DNA of 64,000 bases from Pseudomonas putida (GTDB lineage: Bacteria; Pseudomonadota; Gammaproteobacteria; Pseudomonadales; Pseudomonadaceae). The DNA lies in contig CP047152.1 of assembly GCA_041879295.1 (NCBI GenBank), forward strand, positions 3,973,501-4,037,500, written 5' to 3'. This document shows positions 6,251 through 36,092 of this stretch, in pieces (positions within the stretch are counted from its first letter, which is position 1; every line of letters starts with the position of its first letter). The notes under the pieces are model-generated. The model saw only the letters and a list, made by a program, of their open reading frames with translations. It was not told the origin of the DNA and did no database searches. The position numbers were made by a program, and so were the translations under genes.

Positions 6251-6811
6251 GAGTATTCCAGCGCCTTGGGCTATTTGACTGACGGGGCGACGCATCGCCC
6301 CGCGATGTTTGCCCGTACACCTTTCCAGCAGGCGTGCGGGTGGCCCTCTGCGCACACAAAGTGCAGCAGAAAAGCCGGGCCGCCTGACCGATCCGTGCCT
6401 GGCCCAGTGGCAAAGACAGCTTAGATCATCAGGCAGTACGAGAAATTCTGGCGACCTGCGGGCCGATGTGACCCTTCGTCGCATTTCAAATTATTTCTGT
6501 CATCCGCAAACAACGCTGGCGAAATGACGTCAAAGAACGGCAAAACCCGATCATTACGGGGCTGAACACCAAACAAGGTTGAGTCGCATTTATTTACTTA
6601 TCCCCTGACCCTTGGAAAGGTTACGTGCTTATGACAAAACGGTCATTCACACCGTGACTCGCATTCGATAGAACTGGTCTCAGGCCACTTCGCAACGAGG
6701 CGGCACTTTCAGCTCGCCACGCCGGCAGCGAGCGCAAACCGGCAGAACGACTCTGCCCGGCCTCGGAGAGGCCGACGGGACATTACAGTCAACAAGTGAG
6801 GGCAACACCCT
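6251..6811. other. Gene-free region between divergent rlmL and rmf
   Basis: About 560 bp without a convincing gene. The rmf-proximal half is AT-richer and must hold the rmf promoter; a hairpin CGGCCTC-GGA-GAGGCCG at 6759-6775 would lie in the rmf 5' untranslated region. No recognised riboswitch was seen. Confidence 0.5.
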
Positions 6812-9557: not shown

Positions 9558-10133
9558 ATGTTGCGCATCCTGCTGATCGACGACACCCAGAGCAAGCTAG
9601 GTCGTCTCCGGGCGGCATTGAGTGAGGCCGGCTTCGAAATCATTGAAGCCCCGGACCTGACCATCGACCTGCCCGCCTGCGTCGAAACGGTGCGCCCGGA
9701 CGTAGTGCTGATCGATACCGACTCACCAGACCGTGACGTGATGGAACAGGTAGTGCTGGTCAGCCGTGACCAGCCGCGGCCCATCGTGTTGTTCACCGAC
9801 GAGCACGACCCCGGGATGATGCGCCAGGCCATTCAGGCAGGGGTCAGCGCCTATATTGTCGAGGGCATCCATGCTGCGCGGCTGCAGCCGATCCTGGATG
9901 TGGCCATGGCCCGCTTCGAAAGCGACCAGGCACTCAAGGCGCAGTTGCTTGCGCGCGACCAGCAATTGGCCGAACGCAAGCGCATCGAGCAGGCCAAGGG
10001 TTTGCTGATGAAGATGAAGGATTGCAACGAAGAGCAGGCCTATACCCTCATGCGTCGCCAGGCCATGAGCCGGCAACAGAAGCTGATCCAGGTGGCCGAA
10101 CAGATCATTGCCATGCATGAGATGCTCGGCTGA
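9558..10133 (+). CDS. nasT: NasT: response-regulator-like antiterminator with ANTAR domain
   Basis: Predicted 191-residue RNA-binding antiterminator. The N-terminal receiver-like domain keeps the acidic pocket (Asp8, Asp9, Asp53); a coiled segment leads to a C-terminal ANTAR domain (about 130-191) with RKRIEQAKGLLMKMK, EEQAYTLMRRQAM and VAEQIIAM. When released by NasS it is expected to bind hexaloop hairpins in nas leader RNA. The ATG at 9558 has a GGGGAGGA ribosome site; the longer open frame upstream is overlap with nasS. Confidence 0.92.
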   Translation: MLRILLIDDTQSKLGRLRAALSEAGFEIIEAPDLTIDLPACVETVRPDVVLIDTDSPDRDVMEQVVLVSRDQPRPIVLFTDEHDPGMMRQAIQAGVSAYIVEGIHAARLQPILDVAMARFESDQALKAQLLARDQQLAERKRIEQAKGLLMKMKDCNEEQAYTLMRRQAMSRQQKLIQVAEQIIAMHEMLG

Positions 10134-10165
10134 TGCGCTGGGCGTGAGATTTTTGGCGCCTGGCA

Positions 10166-10341
10166 GATCGAGCGCCGCCCGCGCGGCGCATCGCGAGCTG
10201 CGCTCGCTCCTACGCTTGTTTCGGGCCAATTATTTCTGTGCCATTTGCGCGCGAACGCTTTGGCGTATGGCGCAAGATCGCACCGTACAAACAAGGCGGT
10301 CGCGCGCGCCTGTAACAGGCGTTACTGGCCAAAAACAAACG
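10166..10341. repeat. Incomplete copy of the 222-bp palindromic element
   Basis: Left arm plus core of the palindromic element, lacking the right arm. It is joined within 2 bp to the left arm of the next copy, giving a direct repeat with a 178-bp period. The arm begins GATCGAGCGCCGCCC and contains the hairpin GCGAGC-TGC-GCTCGC; the core begins TTTGTTTCGGGCCAA. Confidence 0.85.
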
Positions 10342-10343
10342 CA

Positions 10344-10565
10344 GATCGAGCGCCGCCCGCGCGGCGCATCGCGAGCTGCGCTCGCTCCTACGTTTGTTTC
10401 GGGCCAATTATTTCTGTGCCATTTGCGCGCGAACGCTTTGGCGTATGGCGCAAGATCGCACCGTACAAACAAGGCGGTCGCGCGCGCCTGTAACAGGCGT
10501 TACTGGCCAAAAACAAACGTAGGAGCGAGCGCAGCTCGCGATGCGCCGCGCGGGCGGCGCTCGAT
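10344..10565. repeat. 222-bp palindromic REPIN-like element, copy A
   Basis: Complete element: left arm of about 48 bp, core of about 125 bp, right arm that is the inverted repeat of the left. The core ends are also inverted (TTTGTTTCGGGCCAA versus TTGGCCAAAAACAAA), and the core interior is a looser palindrome, so the whole unit could fold as one long hairpin. Three further full copies of exactly the same length lie at 32.9-34.0 kb. It ends about 40 bp before the nasA promoter. Confidence 0.9.
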
Positions 10566-10607
10566 TTAACAGGCGCTGAAGACCTTAAGACAAACCCTAC
10601 CAACAGT

Positions 10608-10623
10608 TGGCCCATCTCTTGCT
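10608..10623 (+). promoter_or_regulatory. Probable sigma-54 promoter of nasA
   Basis: TGGCCC-N5-TTGCT keeps GG and GC at the required 10-base spacing; one base departs from the TGGCAC consensus. It predicts a start near 10634, immediately before the leader hairpin. Any upstream enhancer would have to lie in or beyond the palindromic repeats. Confidence 0.6.
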
Positions 10624-10637
10624 GAACAAATCTCACC

Positions 10638-10657
10638 GGTAGCCAACGGCGGTTACC
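10638..10657 (+). promoter_or_regulatory. ANTAR-type hexaloop hairpin in the nasA leader
   Basis: Stem GGTAGCC / GGTTACC (7 pairs, one G-U) closing the hexaloop AACGGC. The loop has A at position 1 and G at position 4, as in RNA targets of ANTAR proteins. It lies just upstream of a terminator and next to nasT, so NasT-dependent antitermination of nasA is likely. The second hairpin of the usual pair was not clearly found. Confidence 0.6.
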
Positions 10658-10676
10658 CCACTTGAATCCCGACAAA

Positions 10677-10725
10677 GACGTCGCTCTCCCCTCCACGCCC
10701 GTGGAGCGGGTAGCGGCGTCTTTTT
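10677..10725 (+). terminator. Leader terminator (attenuator) before nasA
   Basis: Outer stem GACGTCGCT / AGCGGCGTC and inner stem CTCCAC / GTGGAG followed by five T residues, ending 31 bp before the nasA ATG. Placed between promoter and gene, it would block nasA unless antitermination occurs. Confidence 0.8.
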
Positions 10726-19030: not shown

Positions 19031-19189
19031 GGGAAGCTCCTGTCAGTCACAACGAAAGCGGGTATCGGCCAAGGCTACACCTTGGAGGCTGTCGCAGTCA
19101 TCCGGGACCGGGCAGTCATTTGTATTCATCCTGTCTCGGCCCTTCCACGCGTGACCCGTTCCTGCACAGTAACGCGCCGTTATCCGGTG

Positions 19190-19218
19190 TAGGAGCGGGT
19201 TCACCCGCGAAGAGGCCA
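19190..19218. repeat. P. putida REP element
   Basis: GTAGGAGCGGGTTCACCCGC followed by GAAGAGGCC; the palindrome GCGGGT-TC-ACCCGC forms a hairpin. It sits between rraA and the hydrolase, in intergenic DNA as is typical of REP sequences. Confidence 0.9.
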
Positions 19219-19235
19219 TGACAGGTACAGCAAAC

Positions 19236-23716: not shown

Positions 23717-23737
23717 ACCTGTCCGGGCCCGCCCCCT

Positions 23738-23766
23738 GTAGGAGCGGGTTCACCCGCGAAAGGGCC
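23738..23766. repeat. P. putida REP element
   Basis: GTAGGAGCGGGTTCACCCGC followed by GAAAGGGCC, 22 bp after the ppsR stop; same hairpin as the copy near 19.2 kb. Confidence 0.9.
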
Positions 23767-23782
23767 AGCCCAGGCATACAAA

Positions 23783-23815
23783 AAAGCCCCGGCATCACTG
23801 CCGGGGCTTTGTTTT
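23783..23815. terminator. Bidirectional terminator between ppsR and gdhB
   Basis: AAAGCCCCGGCA-TCAC-TGCCGGGGCTTT with an A-tract before and GTTTT after it; it serves both convergent genes. Confidence 0.9.
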
Positions 23816-29028: not shown

Positions 29029-29325
29029 ATGGCGACCCTGTGTTGCCACAGCGACAAAGGTCAGATGTTCCTGCTTACCCGCTACCCGGACGAGGACACC
29101 GTCGACCTGACCCTGGATGATGAGCCGTCGACGCTGGATGGTCTTAAAGTGACCCTGAGCGCCAAGCGCCTGCTGATTGAAGTGGCGGCCGGTGACCGGG
29201 ACGCGCTGAAGGGGGATGAAGTGCTGGAGATCAACCTGACCAGTGAGTTGAGTGACATGGATGAAGTGAAGGAAACCCTTGAAAACATCCTGGCCGGTAC
29301 TGGAACCTTGGTCTGCGAGCTGTAG
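29029..29325 (+). CDS. Small acidic protein of unknown function
   Basis: Predicted 98-residue acidic protein, MATLCCHSDKGQMFLLTRYP..., ending TLVCEL. It has no signal peptide, TM helix or known motif; two cysteines near the N-terminus and one at the end. The ATG at 29029 is chosen because GAGGAAG lies 7 bases upstream; the earlier ATG at 28972 has none. It is divergent from gdhB. Its TAG stop is supplied by the first bases of a REP element. Function not recognised. Confidence 0.75.
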   Translation: MATLCCHSDKGQMFLLTRYPDEDTVDLTLDDEPSTLDGLKVTLSAKRLLIEVAAGDRDALKGDEVLEINLTSELSDMDEVKETLENILAGTGTLVCEL

Positions 29326-29350
29326 GAGCGGGTTTACCCGCGAAGCAGGC
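29322..29350. repeat. P. putida REP element overlapping a stop codon
   Basis: GTAGGAGCGGGTTTACCCGC followed by GAAGCAGGC. Its TAG is the stop codon of the preceding 98-residue gene. Confidence 0.88.
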
Positions 29351-29390
29351 ACTGCGGGGATGGCATGGAATCTGAGCGCCCCGCAAAGCC

Positions 29391-32571: not shown

Positions 32572-32902
32572 GGGTGCTCTCGGGCCGTGCTTGTTGTGTG
32601 GGTTCAATTTCAGCATCAAGAAGCATCCTAGCCGAATCGAAACCTGCACTGCACGCTACGCAATCGCCATCGCCCCGTACTGAGCGACCGGGGTGATCTT
32701 CGGCTCTCTTCTCTTCCGCGCCCCTGCCGTGCACCGCCCAGGCGTTGACTCGCGAAGCGGTCATTCATGATGCCGACACTTTTTGGCCGCCATTCGCGCA
32801 GTGCGATGAATGGCGGGTTGGGTGGTCGGCGGGGGGATCGGGTCAGGGCCAGCAGGGGGCTTGCCAGAACCTGTTTGGCGCCTGGGAGATCGAGCGCCGC
32901 CT

Positions 32903-32946
32903 GTATGGCGGTAGAGGTGCGTCGCCTGTGAGATCGAGCGCCGCCC
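32903..32946. repeat. Single 44-bp minisatellite unit
   Basis: One copy of the unit GTATGGCGGTAGAGGTGCGT... that merges into the left arm of the first 222-bp element; three copies precede each later element. Confidence 0.8.
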
Positions 32947-33153
32947 GCGCGGCGCATCGCGAGCTGCGCTCGCTCCTACGTTTGTTTCGGGCCAGTTATT
33001 CCTGGGGGATTTGCGCGCGAACGCTTTGGCGCTTGGCGCGATATTGCGTCGTACAAACAAAACGGTCGCGCGCGTCTGCCACAGGCGTTATTGGCCAGAA
33101 ACAAACGTAGGAGCGAGCGCAGCTCGCGATGCGCCGCGCGGGCGGCGCTCGAT
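32932..33153. repeat. 222-bp palindromic REPIN-like element, copy B
   Basis: Same arms as the copy at 10.3 kb, but a diverged core (for example GGGCCAGTTATTCCTGGGGG). The outer hairpins GCGCCGCCCGCGCGGCGC and GCGAGC-TGC-GCTCGC are intact on both sides. Confidence 0.9.
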
Positions 33154-33230
33154 TTCTGCCACCCCCTAAAACCCACGGCAAACACACCCGGCCATTGCGC
33201 AACGTCATGCCAGGCGGTGTGGCCTTGAAG

Positions 33231-33362
33231 GTATGGCGGTAGAGGTGCGTCGCCTGGGAGATCGAGCGCCGCCTGTATGGCGGTAGAGGTGCGTCGCCCG
33301 GGAGATCGAGCGCCGCCTGTATGGCGGTAGAGGTGCGTCGCCTGGGAGATCGAGCGCCGCCC
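33231..33362 (+). repeat. 44-bp tandem repeat, three copies
   Basis: GTATGGCGGTAGAGGTGCGT followed by CGCCTGGGAGATCGAGCGCC and GCCT, repeated at 33231, 33275 and 33319; the third copy runs into the arm of the next palindromic element. There are no spacers, so this is not a CRISPR array. Confidence 0.9.
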
Positions 33363-33569
33363 GCGCGGCGCATCGCGAGCTGCGCTCGCTCCTACGTTTG
33401 TTTCGGGCCAGTCATTCCTGTGGGATTTGTGCGCGAACGCCTTGGCGCTTGGCACGATATTGCGTCGTACAAACAAGGCGGTCGCGCGCGCCTGTCACAG
33501 GCGTTACTGGCCAGAAACAAACGTAGGAGCGAGCATAGCTCGCGATGCGCCGCGCGGGCGGCGCTCGAT
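33348..33569. repeat. 222-bp palindromic REPIN-like element, copy C
   Basis: Second element of the array, same length as the others. One base change in the right arm (GAGCATAGCTCGC) is not matched in the left arm. The small stem GCCTG-TCA-CAGGC is kept in the core. Confidence 0.9.
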
Positions 33570-33646
33570 TTCTGCCACCCCCTAAAACCCACGGCAAACA
33601 CACCCGGCCATTGCGCAACGTCATGCCAGGCGGTGTGGCCTTGAAG

Positions 33647-33778
33647 GTATGGCGGTAGAGGTGCGTCGCCTGGGAGACCGAGCGCCGCCTGTATGGCGGT
33701 AGAGGTGCGTCGCCTGGGAGATCGAGCGCCGCCTGTATGGCGGTAGAGGTGCGTCGCCTGGGAGATCGAGCGCCGCCC
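33647..33778 (+). repeat. 44-bp tandem repeat, three copies (second set)
   Basis: Copies start at 33647, 33691 and 33735 and are nearly identical to the first set; the set is displaced from it by 416 bp. Confidence 0.9.
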
Positions 33779-33985
33779 GCGCGGCGCATCGCGAGCTGCG
33801 CTCGCTCCTACGTTTGTTTCGGGCCAATCATTCCTGTGGGATTTGCGCGCGTACGCCTTGGCGCAGGGCTCGATATCGCGTCGTACAAACACGGCGGTCG
33901 CGCGCGCCTGTCACAGGCGTCACTGGCCAGAAACAAACGTAGGAGCGAGTGCAGCTCGCGATGCGCCGCGCGGGCGGCGCTCGAT
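33764..33985. repeat. 222-bp palindromic REPIN-like element, copy D
   Basis: Third element of the array. The right arm continues outward into the 46-bp bounding inverted repeat (ATCTCCCAGGCGCCAAACAG), so this end looks like the original terminus. Confidence 0.9.
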
Positions 33986-34107
33986 CTCCCAGGCGCCAAA
34001 CAGGTTCTGGCAAGCCCCTGGGTGGCCCTGCTCGACAGGCTGGAACGTTCGGCATTCGGCCGCTGTTACACTGTCAACCGATGAAATAGGCGAGCCAGAG
34101 CAAAGGT

Positions 34108-35133: not shown

Positions 35134-35213
35134 CCTGATACTTTTATCAGCTTAAGCCTGTGCACTTCATAACACACTGATGCCAAGTGCCAGATCTGAC
35201 GGATCTCAGAGAT

Positions 35214-36092
35214 ATGTCAACGCATAAAACTTCGACATCACGCAAAAAACACGATCCGGCCACTGCAGCCTGTTCGAAAAGCCAGGCCCATGACCAACAT
35301 GGCGCCGCACGGACACCCACGGGCCCAACAAAAGGCCAGCCACGAAACTACACACCCTATGGGTTTCGAAACACCAAAGCGGAGCCGACCGGAGCGGTGG
35401 GGTTCAATGGTGAATTTTACGCTTCTGCGCTGGAAGGCTATGCACTCGGAAATGGGTACCGAATATTCATCCCACGCTTGATGCGATTCATCAGCCCAGA
35501 CAACCAGAGCCCTTTCCTCAAAGGCGGCATCAATGCCTATGCCTACTGCCTGAACGACCCTATCAACGCACAAGACCCTAGCGGAAAAAATGCAATCAAT
35601 AAATTTTTCCAGGCAGCCATTCAGATAGGCAGGAATTATAGAAAACAATTCAAACCCTCCAATACGGCACACCTGCTTTCGAACAACCAAGCCAAACACC
35701 TTCAAACCGAACTCAAGAATGCCAAAAAATTAATAAGCGAGGACATCGTAGACATCCATATCATCAACAACAAAAATAACGCCCAAAAAATCAGTCCATC
35801 ACTCATTTACAAATACACACTCATAAATGAAGGAGACGAAACCACCCTGATCGTCTTCGGCGCCTCTACTGACCCCCTCTTGAATACTCACGCCAGCGGC
35901 GCTGAAATGTGGAATTTCAATGCCAGCAACAACGTCAGCGCTGCAGGTTATATCGCCTATAAGAATGGGGTATTCACTGTCGACGACTGGTCCGGCCACT
36001 ATCAGCCTGAGCACTGGCGCACGGCGCTCGTAAAAGCCTACCTGGAAGGGTTGGGCTATGAGGTGAGAACTGTGCGCCGTGGCTTTGGGTAG
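35214..36092 (+). CDS. Orphan RHS-core protein with variable toxin-like C-terminus
   Basis: Predicted 292-residue protein. Residues about 45-125 are an RHS-repeat-associated core end (NYTPYGFRN, GFNGE, GNGYRIFIPRLMRFISPD, GGINAYAYCLNDPIN, DPSGK). The remaining 165 residues are a unique C-terminus ending with DDWSGHYQPEHW near 260. Full Rhs proteins exceed 1000 residues, so this is a short orphan form as found in P. putida genomes. The base composition is much AT-richer than its neighbours, suggesting transfer. No immunity gene follows before soxR. ATG at 35214 is preferred to a GTG at 35187. Toxicity is inference. Confidence 0.8.
   Translation: MSTHKTSTSRKKHDPATAACSKSQAHDQHGAARTPTGPTKGQPRNYTPYGFRNTKAEPTGAVGFNGEFYASALEGYALGNGYRIFIPRLMRFISPDNQSPFLKGGINAYAYCLNDPINAQDPSGKNAINKFFQAAIQIGRNYRKQFKPSNTAHLLSNNQAKHLQTELKNAKKLISEDIVDIHIINNKNNAQKISPSLIYKYTLINEGDETTLIVFGASTDPLLNTHASGAEMWNFNASNNVSAAGYIAYKNGVFTVDDWSGHYQPEHWRTALVKAYLEGLGYEVRTVRRGFG

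Follow-up and report, generated by a model that had tools for sequence, protein, structure and literature searches.

What kind of sequence forms the long palindromes that recur in a 64,000-nt stretch of the Pseudomonas putida genome (GenBank assembly GCA_041879295.1, contig CP047152.1, positions 3,973,501 to 4,037,500; hereafter the window)? A first-pass annotation, made from the letters alone, had described four copies and one partial copy of a 222-bp palindrome and proposed a non-autonomous element of the REPIN/MITE type, that is, a doublet of repetitive extragenic palindromes (REPs) forming a hairpin or a miniature inverted-repeat transposable element. This proposal was borne out by a high number of dispersed copies, by presence and absence at the same sites among relatives, and by genes for REP-associated tyrosine transposases (RAYTs) that are flanked in relatives by the same arms. 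Sequence comparison indicates that the copies are very probably non-autonomous REPIN/MITE elements of about 289 bp, spread in trans by a single clade of RAYT (TnpA_REP; HUH/Y1).

Anatomy of the element

The four copies were found where the first-pass annotation had placed them, but the symmetric unit has 221 rather than 222 bp, bounded by ATCGAG on the left and CTCGAT on the right, and the annotated interval begins one base early. The partial copy that had been described besides them consists of a left arm and core without a right arm (10167-10344), and is a 178-bp tandem duplication preceding the full copy at 10345-10565. Near 33 kb, three copies make up a tandem array with a 416-bp period, which includes spacers and 44-bp solo units and sits between divergent genes, as judged from the open reading frames (ORFs) of the window. 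The features are listed below; the hairpins and the outer zone beside the partial copy were placed from the sequence.

10133-10166, no strand: left outer zone, 34 bp, adjoining the partial copy (zone defined on 107 loci)
10167-10344, + strand: partial copy, 178-bp tandem duplication of left arm and core
10345-10565, + strand: full 221-bp palindromic element, copy 1
10350-10367, + strand: left hairpin A of copy 1, with a 7-bp stem and a 4-nt loop
10371-10385, + strand: left hairpin B of copy 1, the REP stem, with its GTAG tag at 10388-10391 on the - strand
10519-10539, + strand: right GTAG tag (10519-10522) and right hairpin B (10525-10539) of copy 1
10543-10560, + strand: right hairpin A of copy 1
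10566-10599, no strand: right outer zone of copy 1
32889-32910, + strand: solo hairpin-A-like unit of a 44-bp tandem repeat, other units beginning at 33261, 33305 and 33721
32899-32932, no strand: left outer zone of array copy 1
32933-33153, + strand: full element, array copy 1
33154-33348, no strand: spacer of the 416-bp tandem unit, like the spacer at 33570-33764
33349-33569, + strand: full element, array copy 2
33765-33985, + strand: full element, array copy 3
33986-34019, no strand: right outer zone of array copy 3, mirror of the far-left sequence of the array (inverted repeat 32844-32910 / 33964-34030, 90%)

As had been noticed, each arm contains two hairpins, the loops of which vary slightly among copies. 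Hairpin A is GCGCCGC-CCGC-GCGGCGC, and hairpin B is GCGAGC-TGC-GCTCGC followed by CTAC, which is GTAG on the opposite strand. Hairpin B and the GTAG tag occur on both arms with the tags pointing inward, so that the element has two inverted REPs around a spacer, as REPINs do; the earlier statement that it is unlike the short REPs of P. putida therefore holds only in part, because hairpin B and its tag make up a REP-type unit of their own. Classic REPs (TGTAGGAGCGGGTT...) were found in the window at 19188-19234, 23737-23783 and 29321-29367, and the same class flanks the sole RAYT gene of this genome.

The arms of the four window copies were nearly identical (pairwise identity 0.969-1.000) and the cores had diverged more (0.849-0.929), both as proposed. 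The TTTGTTT ends, reported as kept, were present in all four copies, but the GCCTG/CAGGC stem, reported likewise, occurs in three only, the copy at 32933 having GTCTG. The predicted DNA fold of 33744-34005 reached -133 kcal/mol against -66.1 ± 3.5 for shuffled sequences (z = -18.9), with none of the 200 shuffles as low.

The element is larger than its 221-bp palindrome. At 107 non-array loci, kept out of 129 after removal of array flanks, a degenerate consensus of approximately AGGTGTTTGCCTTGAGATTTTCGGCGCCTGTGAG (read toward the element) extends 34 bp outward on each side, giving a full size of about 289 bp. The first-pass annotation had mentioned neither these inverted zones nor the solo units and spacers of the array, nor how abundant the family is elsewhere. 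The anatomy is thus an outer zone (34 bp), hairpin A, the GTAG-tagged REP hairpin B, a core of about 126 bp, and then B, A and an outer zone (34 bp) again. REPINs usually measure about 100 bp; the earlier remark that the element is longer than a typical REPIN proved correct for both the modal 221 bp and the 289 bp with outer zones, and the short length of REPINs is the feature that it does not share. When 935 kb of element-bearing loci were scanned against shuffles that preserve single-base composition only, 195 outer-zone sites above the lower-quartile score adjoined an arm and 6 lay elsewhere, some of these 6 being apparent remnants. A GGGCT motif at about positions 33-47, counted at 37 and 41 of 214 flanks in two overlapping windows versus 0-8 in other windows, may extend the element in some copies.

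Dispersed copies, empty sites and mini forms

In the 6.05-Mb genome to which the window belongs, the element query matched at least 41 places (40 of 152 candidates scored), a lower bound that misses two of the four copies in the window. A search with the core alone, which had been suggested as a check, revealed 40 near-full and 5 partial places (40 of 145 candidates scored), and the arm pattern matched 152 + 130 places versus 1 + 0 for the reversed control. The cores are therefore found widely in the genome and are not confined to the loci first seen. The other outcome that would have spoken against a mobile element, one recent segmental duplication behind all the window copies, applies to the array only, where three copies have the common 416-bp period; as a general account it can practically be discarded, as copies occupy many sites with differing flanks in this genome and in 25 others.

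A genus-wide search, in which two candidates per genome were scored, returned some match in 94 of 398 genomes, many of them weak, and 26 genomes (including the present one) had matches with E < 1e-49. Among the matches listed, the exact edge pattern was found in P. putida, P. juntendi, P. hunanensis, P. plecoglossicida, P. taiwanensis, P. parafulva, P. capeferrum, P. monteilii, other Pseudomonas and one record labelled Pantoea; the named species are those that we take to form the P. putida group. The NZ_VWXK loci (L098, L103, L130 and others) carry the title Pantoea sp. Ap-967, a name that is probably wrong. These genus loci were picked out by an exact match across the junction of arm and core and represent a minimum set, copies with up to 4 changes in 29 arm bases being kept; because copies were chosen in this way, arm conservation is overstated. 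The modal length was 221 bp (184 of 247 arm pairs, duplicates counted), and at the named loci, a sample biased to full cores, lengths of 28 nt occurred 4 times, 212-224 nt 67 times and other values 13 times. The third array copy gave no match to plasmid and phage sequences, a comparison from which near records may be missing.

Tandem repetition of element parts was also seen elsewhere. In the head-to-tail array L371 (1571500-1572800 of the same genome), the left arm and a sister-type core are repeated with a period of 238 and the right arm stands on the last copy only; both core types are thus present in this genome. In L372, L373 and L053 of this genome, tandem repetition inside one element involves hairpin B and the second half of the core (period about 107 in L372), and L093 and L138 of Pseudomonas sp. 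T1-3-2 are tandem arrays, with a period of 159-173, of a related arm and outer zone. The ends of draft contigs of NZ_BLJG (L091, L104, L110, L121 and others) often fall about 100 bp from the edge of an element, and assemblies seem to break at these palindromes.

Comparison of six sites of the present genome with 48 stretches from relatives revealed that all six are empty in some relative. Among the 46 stretches bounded by two flanks there were 9 full elements, 2 mini forms, 2 remnants and 33 without any element, and the two one-flank stretches (L334 and L336) had none either; at one site no bounded stretch was obtained from 2 of 16 candidate loci. Selection was by hand and in many cases favoured short gaps, so that 9 of 46 gives no estimate of occupancy. 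In the 13 stretches with element traces the outer zone scored 11.9-38.2 at best, compared with 9.4 or lower in the 35 without an element, scores of the present genome being excluded from the comparison. Because element-less sites also lack the outer zone, this zone moves together with the element rather than marking a target that was there beforehand. At site L017, several element-less relatives retain a stretch that resembles the left outer zone by eye and is perhaps a remnant. Many element-less sites carry a different REPIN-like repeat instead.

At the L022 site, relatives L331, L332 and L340 share the outer layers with the present genome and differ in REP and core, while L321 has a mini form there. 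The inner modules (REP and core) seem to have been exchanged in place, probably via recombination between copies. The core-less mini form of 28 bp was detected in 25 of the 26 genomes, including 6 places in the present one, versus 0 for the reversed control; the search pattern fixes its junction, and alternative junctions went uncounted across the genomes.

The ubiquity of the mini form, together with the constancy of hairpin A and outer zone at the L022 site while REP and core vary, could be read as the trace of an ancestral docking palindrome, made of mini form and outer zones, that different REPINs entered, the layers having separate origins. Palindromes around dimers of other REP families are indeed described in other bacteria by Di Nocera et al. 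(2013; PMC3733652). We nevertheless consider this account improbable, since the two hairpins A are inverted and not direct repeats, which a simple insertion does not yield, whereas deletion between the direct repeats of GCGCCGC does give the mini form. Moreover, the present genome has 6 minis against 248 hairpin-A matches, and element-less sites are without the outer zone as well.

Two origins fit the mini form: slippage that deleted the stretch between the GCGCCGC repeats of the hairpins A, or RAYT-catalysed excision that left a scar. An identical junction recurs in many genomes, and Bertels and Rainey (2011) describe asymmetric excisions after which part of a REPIN stays behind. However, the junction is fixed by the search pattern, slippage between the 7-bp repeats gives an identical product, and the present genome has its 6 minis without this RAYT, so that we regard a catalysed scar as possible but somewhat unlikely.

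Association with a RAYT clade

The suggested search for a RAYT gene flanked by the same arms was successful in relatives. Y1_Tnp genes occur in 24 of the 26 strong-match genomes, at 52 places, 50 of which were retrieved; the tree comprised 49 genes, the short L319 being left out. Hairpin A was found within 450 bp of 13 of the 49 RAYTs, and 12 of these together with L249 form one clade (support 100/99), a clustering matched in none of 500 label shuffles. Full elements stand on both sides of the RAYT in L244, L246 and L247, and likewise in L264, where one arm is degenerate; in L254 and L258 a full element on one side is accompanied by a mini-like hairpin on the other. For the hairpin-B type of the window, full elements border the RAYT on either side (L244 and L246). 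Within a single pair of arms it lies in L261 (1272-2078, 807 bp) and L242, where core ends of the sister type stand on the inner side; the ends shared with an autonomous element, which characterise MITEs, were thus found for a sister type.

The type of hairpin B and core tracks the RAYT subclade, being either GCGAGC-TGC-GCTCGC and near variants, GCGAGCAAGGCTCGC, or GCGGATGAATCCGC/GCGGGCAAGCCCGC with another core; the arms near RAYTs were located via hairpin A, so that the constancy of hairpin A there is partly by construction. The L244 protein, the one that was scanned, matched NF047646 REP_Tyr_transpos (NCBIfam) with 157.5 bits (cut-off 80) and PF01797 with 45.8 bits (cut-off 23), and the HUH and Tyr motifs were seen in an alignment of 14 sequences.

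By analogy with published measurements on other TnpA_REP proteins, the RAYT would recognise hairpin B together with its GTAG tag on single-stranded DNA, cut the strand and rejoin it. Those proteins bind single-stranded REPs and cut them at CT (once also at CA), with involvement of GTAG (PMC8266576). A cognate RAYT, which REPINs typically have, is present in relatives and absent from the present genome, which appears to have lost it and the copies of which are probably stranded.

Several results weigh against this account; those that concern the mirroring of the two halves (unbeaten partners, within-genome arm and loop counts, shared ancestry of copies) follow in the next section. The present genome has no RAYT of the arm-flanked clade: classic REPs border its sole Y1_Tnp gene (L031), which was the only match of a clade protein searched there, with 62% identity. 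Its 248 hairpin-A matches (129 + 119) are the highest number among the 26 genomes despite this lack, in a comparison where several of the other 25 are fragmented drafts and possibly undercounted; across the 26 genomes, no difference in hairpin-A count was detectable between those with and without a cognate RAYT (Mann-Whitney p = 0.33). Furthermore, L249 belongs to the clade with no arms in sight, its locus ending early, and the arm-flanked L243 falls outside it. Finally, the target-site duplication expected of DDE-type MITEs was not observed, as the outer-zone edges of the 107 loci had no clear direct repeat beyond that of shuffled pairs.

Symmetry, genomic position and related repeats

The first-pass annotation had also proposed that conserved length and folding reflect selection for a structure, to be checked by compensatory changes. 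Mirroring between the halves of one copy was clear in the outer zones, weaker in the arms and, taken over its whole length, missing from the core; structural selection is thus not demonstrated. Left and right outer zones of the same copy, compared as reverse complements, had 2114 matches versus 1884 ± 28 with shuffled partners (0 of 2000 shuffles; 107 loci), and 1566 versus 1396 ± 23 when partners were shuffled within one genome (0 of 2000; 77 of the 107 loci). The own partner ranked in the top 5% of all outer zones for 49 of 214 zones, where about 11 are expected, and was unbeaten for 21 of 214. Ten minis also mirror in their outer zones (196 versus 160 ± 11; 7 of 2000). Past 34 bp the signal fades, the value at positions 35-43 being reached by 68 of 2000 shuffles. 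At positions 61-100 from the element edge, a modest mirror excess in single-locus flanks was reached by 10 of 2000.

The 89 distinct copies with a length of exactly 221 nt gave 4186 arm matches versus 4124 ± 5.3; with within-genome shuffles this was reduced to 3433 versus 3409 ± 4.6 (0 of 2000; 73 of the 89 copies). In the loop region of hairpin B (positions 33-36), within-genome shuffles gave 249 ± 4.4 against 266 observed (1 of 2000), and among the 73 copies the same non-TGC loop stood on both sides in 9 and unlike loops in 17. The core (positions 57-110) had no covariation overall (z = 0.6); a weak signal at positions 81-96 (5 of 2000) was lost with within-genome shuffles (101 of 2000).

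Stem selection, symmetric parents, symmetry rebuilt at transposition and template switching during replication could each contribute to the mirroring, and shared ancestry of the copies could explain part of it. Selection on pairing alone is less likely because of the loop changes and the drifting outer zone. We infer that the halves of one copy partly homogenise each other, via replication template switching or via symmetry rebuilt at transposition; homogenisation of inverted-repeat arms by template switching has been published for yeast and E. coli. It is tentatively conceivable that the palindrome partly maintains itself, the halves templating each other so that the left and right outer zones stay alike while copies drift; the element would then remain usable for long without a transposase, and its REP and core could be replaced in place to match another RAYT, with hairpin A and outer zone retained. 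The modest arm signal makes this less probable than it would otherwise be.

None of the 107 loci lay inside a called ORF. Genes were called by a simple GC3 method, and the 93 loci with both neighbours called comprised 48 convergent, 36 codirectional and 9 divergent pairs, versus 55, 119 and 41 among 215 background pairs, with which loci of the present genome overlap (convergent excess p = 4e-5). Such a position, together with the very stable fold, would suit immobile repeats that act as bidirectional terminators or mRNA-stabilising hairpins under selection by host genes. We consider this highly improbable: six of six sites are empty in some relative (the stretches having in part been selected for short gaps), one RAYT clade is bordered by the same arms, the core is without overall mirror covariation, and a convergent bias is also expected from avoidance of harm (Silby et al., 2009). 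Insertion adjacent to terminator T-runs was suggested at 18 of 214 flank ends versus 4-10 in far windows, which is too weak to claim. Transposition by the RAYT clade remains the preferred explanation.

As to the neighbourhood, the element had no match in an Rfam scan of the window, where only rmf (6664-6793, 120.8 bits) and narK reached the gathering score. The narK leader RNA (10609-10684, 75.8 bits) begins 10 bp beyond the right outer zone of copy 1, and the ORFs on its two sides, from their translations, presumably encode a NasT-type regulator-like protein and a transporter-like protein. Near the array, ORF 35187-36092 appears to resemble an RHS-repeat-associated core fragment.

Published repeats were compared by description, from the passages of the cited papers available to us. 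Closest are the terminal inverted repeats (TIRs) of P. putida ppf 607 and P. fluorescens pfs 4255, degenerated GTAG-1 units fused to unrelated stem-loops that flank a tyrosine transposase and have hundreds of copies in P. putida and P. fluorescens (Di Nocera et al., 2013; PMC3733652). This description fits arms composed of hairpins B and A, and these TIRs are probably the present arms or sisters of them; that text differs in having no 221/289-bp two-armed unit, conserved core, outer zone or mini form. Fused REP/hairpin repeats in P. putida were thus already known, and the two-layer anatomy with an outer zone was not found there. Subclass 2.5 TnpA_REP are similar in that TIRs of P. putida and P. 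fluorescens are said to derive from degenerate REPs fused to unrelated sequence, with no element-level anatomy in the text seen (PMC6006769). Four arm sequence strings had no match in the open-licence papers searched.

REPINs, described as two inverted REPs around a spacer with a cognate RAYT, tandem clusters, compensatory changes on both hairpin sides and asymmetric excisions (Bertels and Rainey, 2011; PMC3116915), are a further parallel; the element differs in its 221 bp plus outer zones, its extra hairpin per arm and a core without covariation. Compensatory changes in REPIN spacers have been published as well (PMC3116915). The REP "orthoswitch" of Nunvar et al. (2013; PMC3686654) is comparable, in that the REP class changes at orthologous RAYT genes and many REPs have no cognate RAYT, for which RAYT loss or such a switch was suggested; here, in contrast, REP and core switch at a dispersed element site where hairpin A and outer zone are retained. 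The R families of P. fluorescens are likewise intergenic repeats of IR-core-IR form (IR, inverted repeat) with a tail-to-tail bias, and are set apart by description (R2 110 bp, R6 177 bp, R200 320 bp without noted IRs; Silby et al., 2009; PMC2718517). In sum, the element acts like a REPIN and like a MITE, being longer than usual REPINs and without the target duplication of DDE-type MITEs.

With so many natural copies in this family, the two halves of a long palindrome can be compared both inside one copy and across copies, so that self-templated correction of palindromes becomes measurable in nature. In addition, matched pairs of RAYT and hairpin B with a common hairpin A are useful for learning which features are recognised by a RAYT, and genomes that are rich in copies yet devoid of a cognate RAYT for learning how such elements persist.
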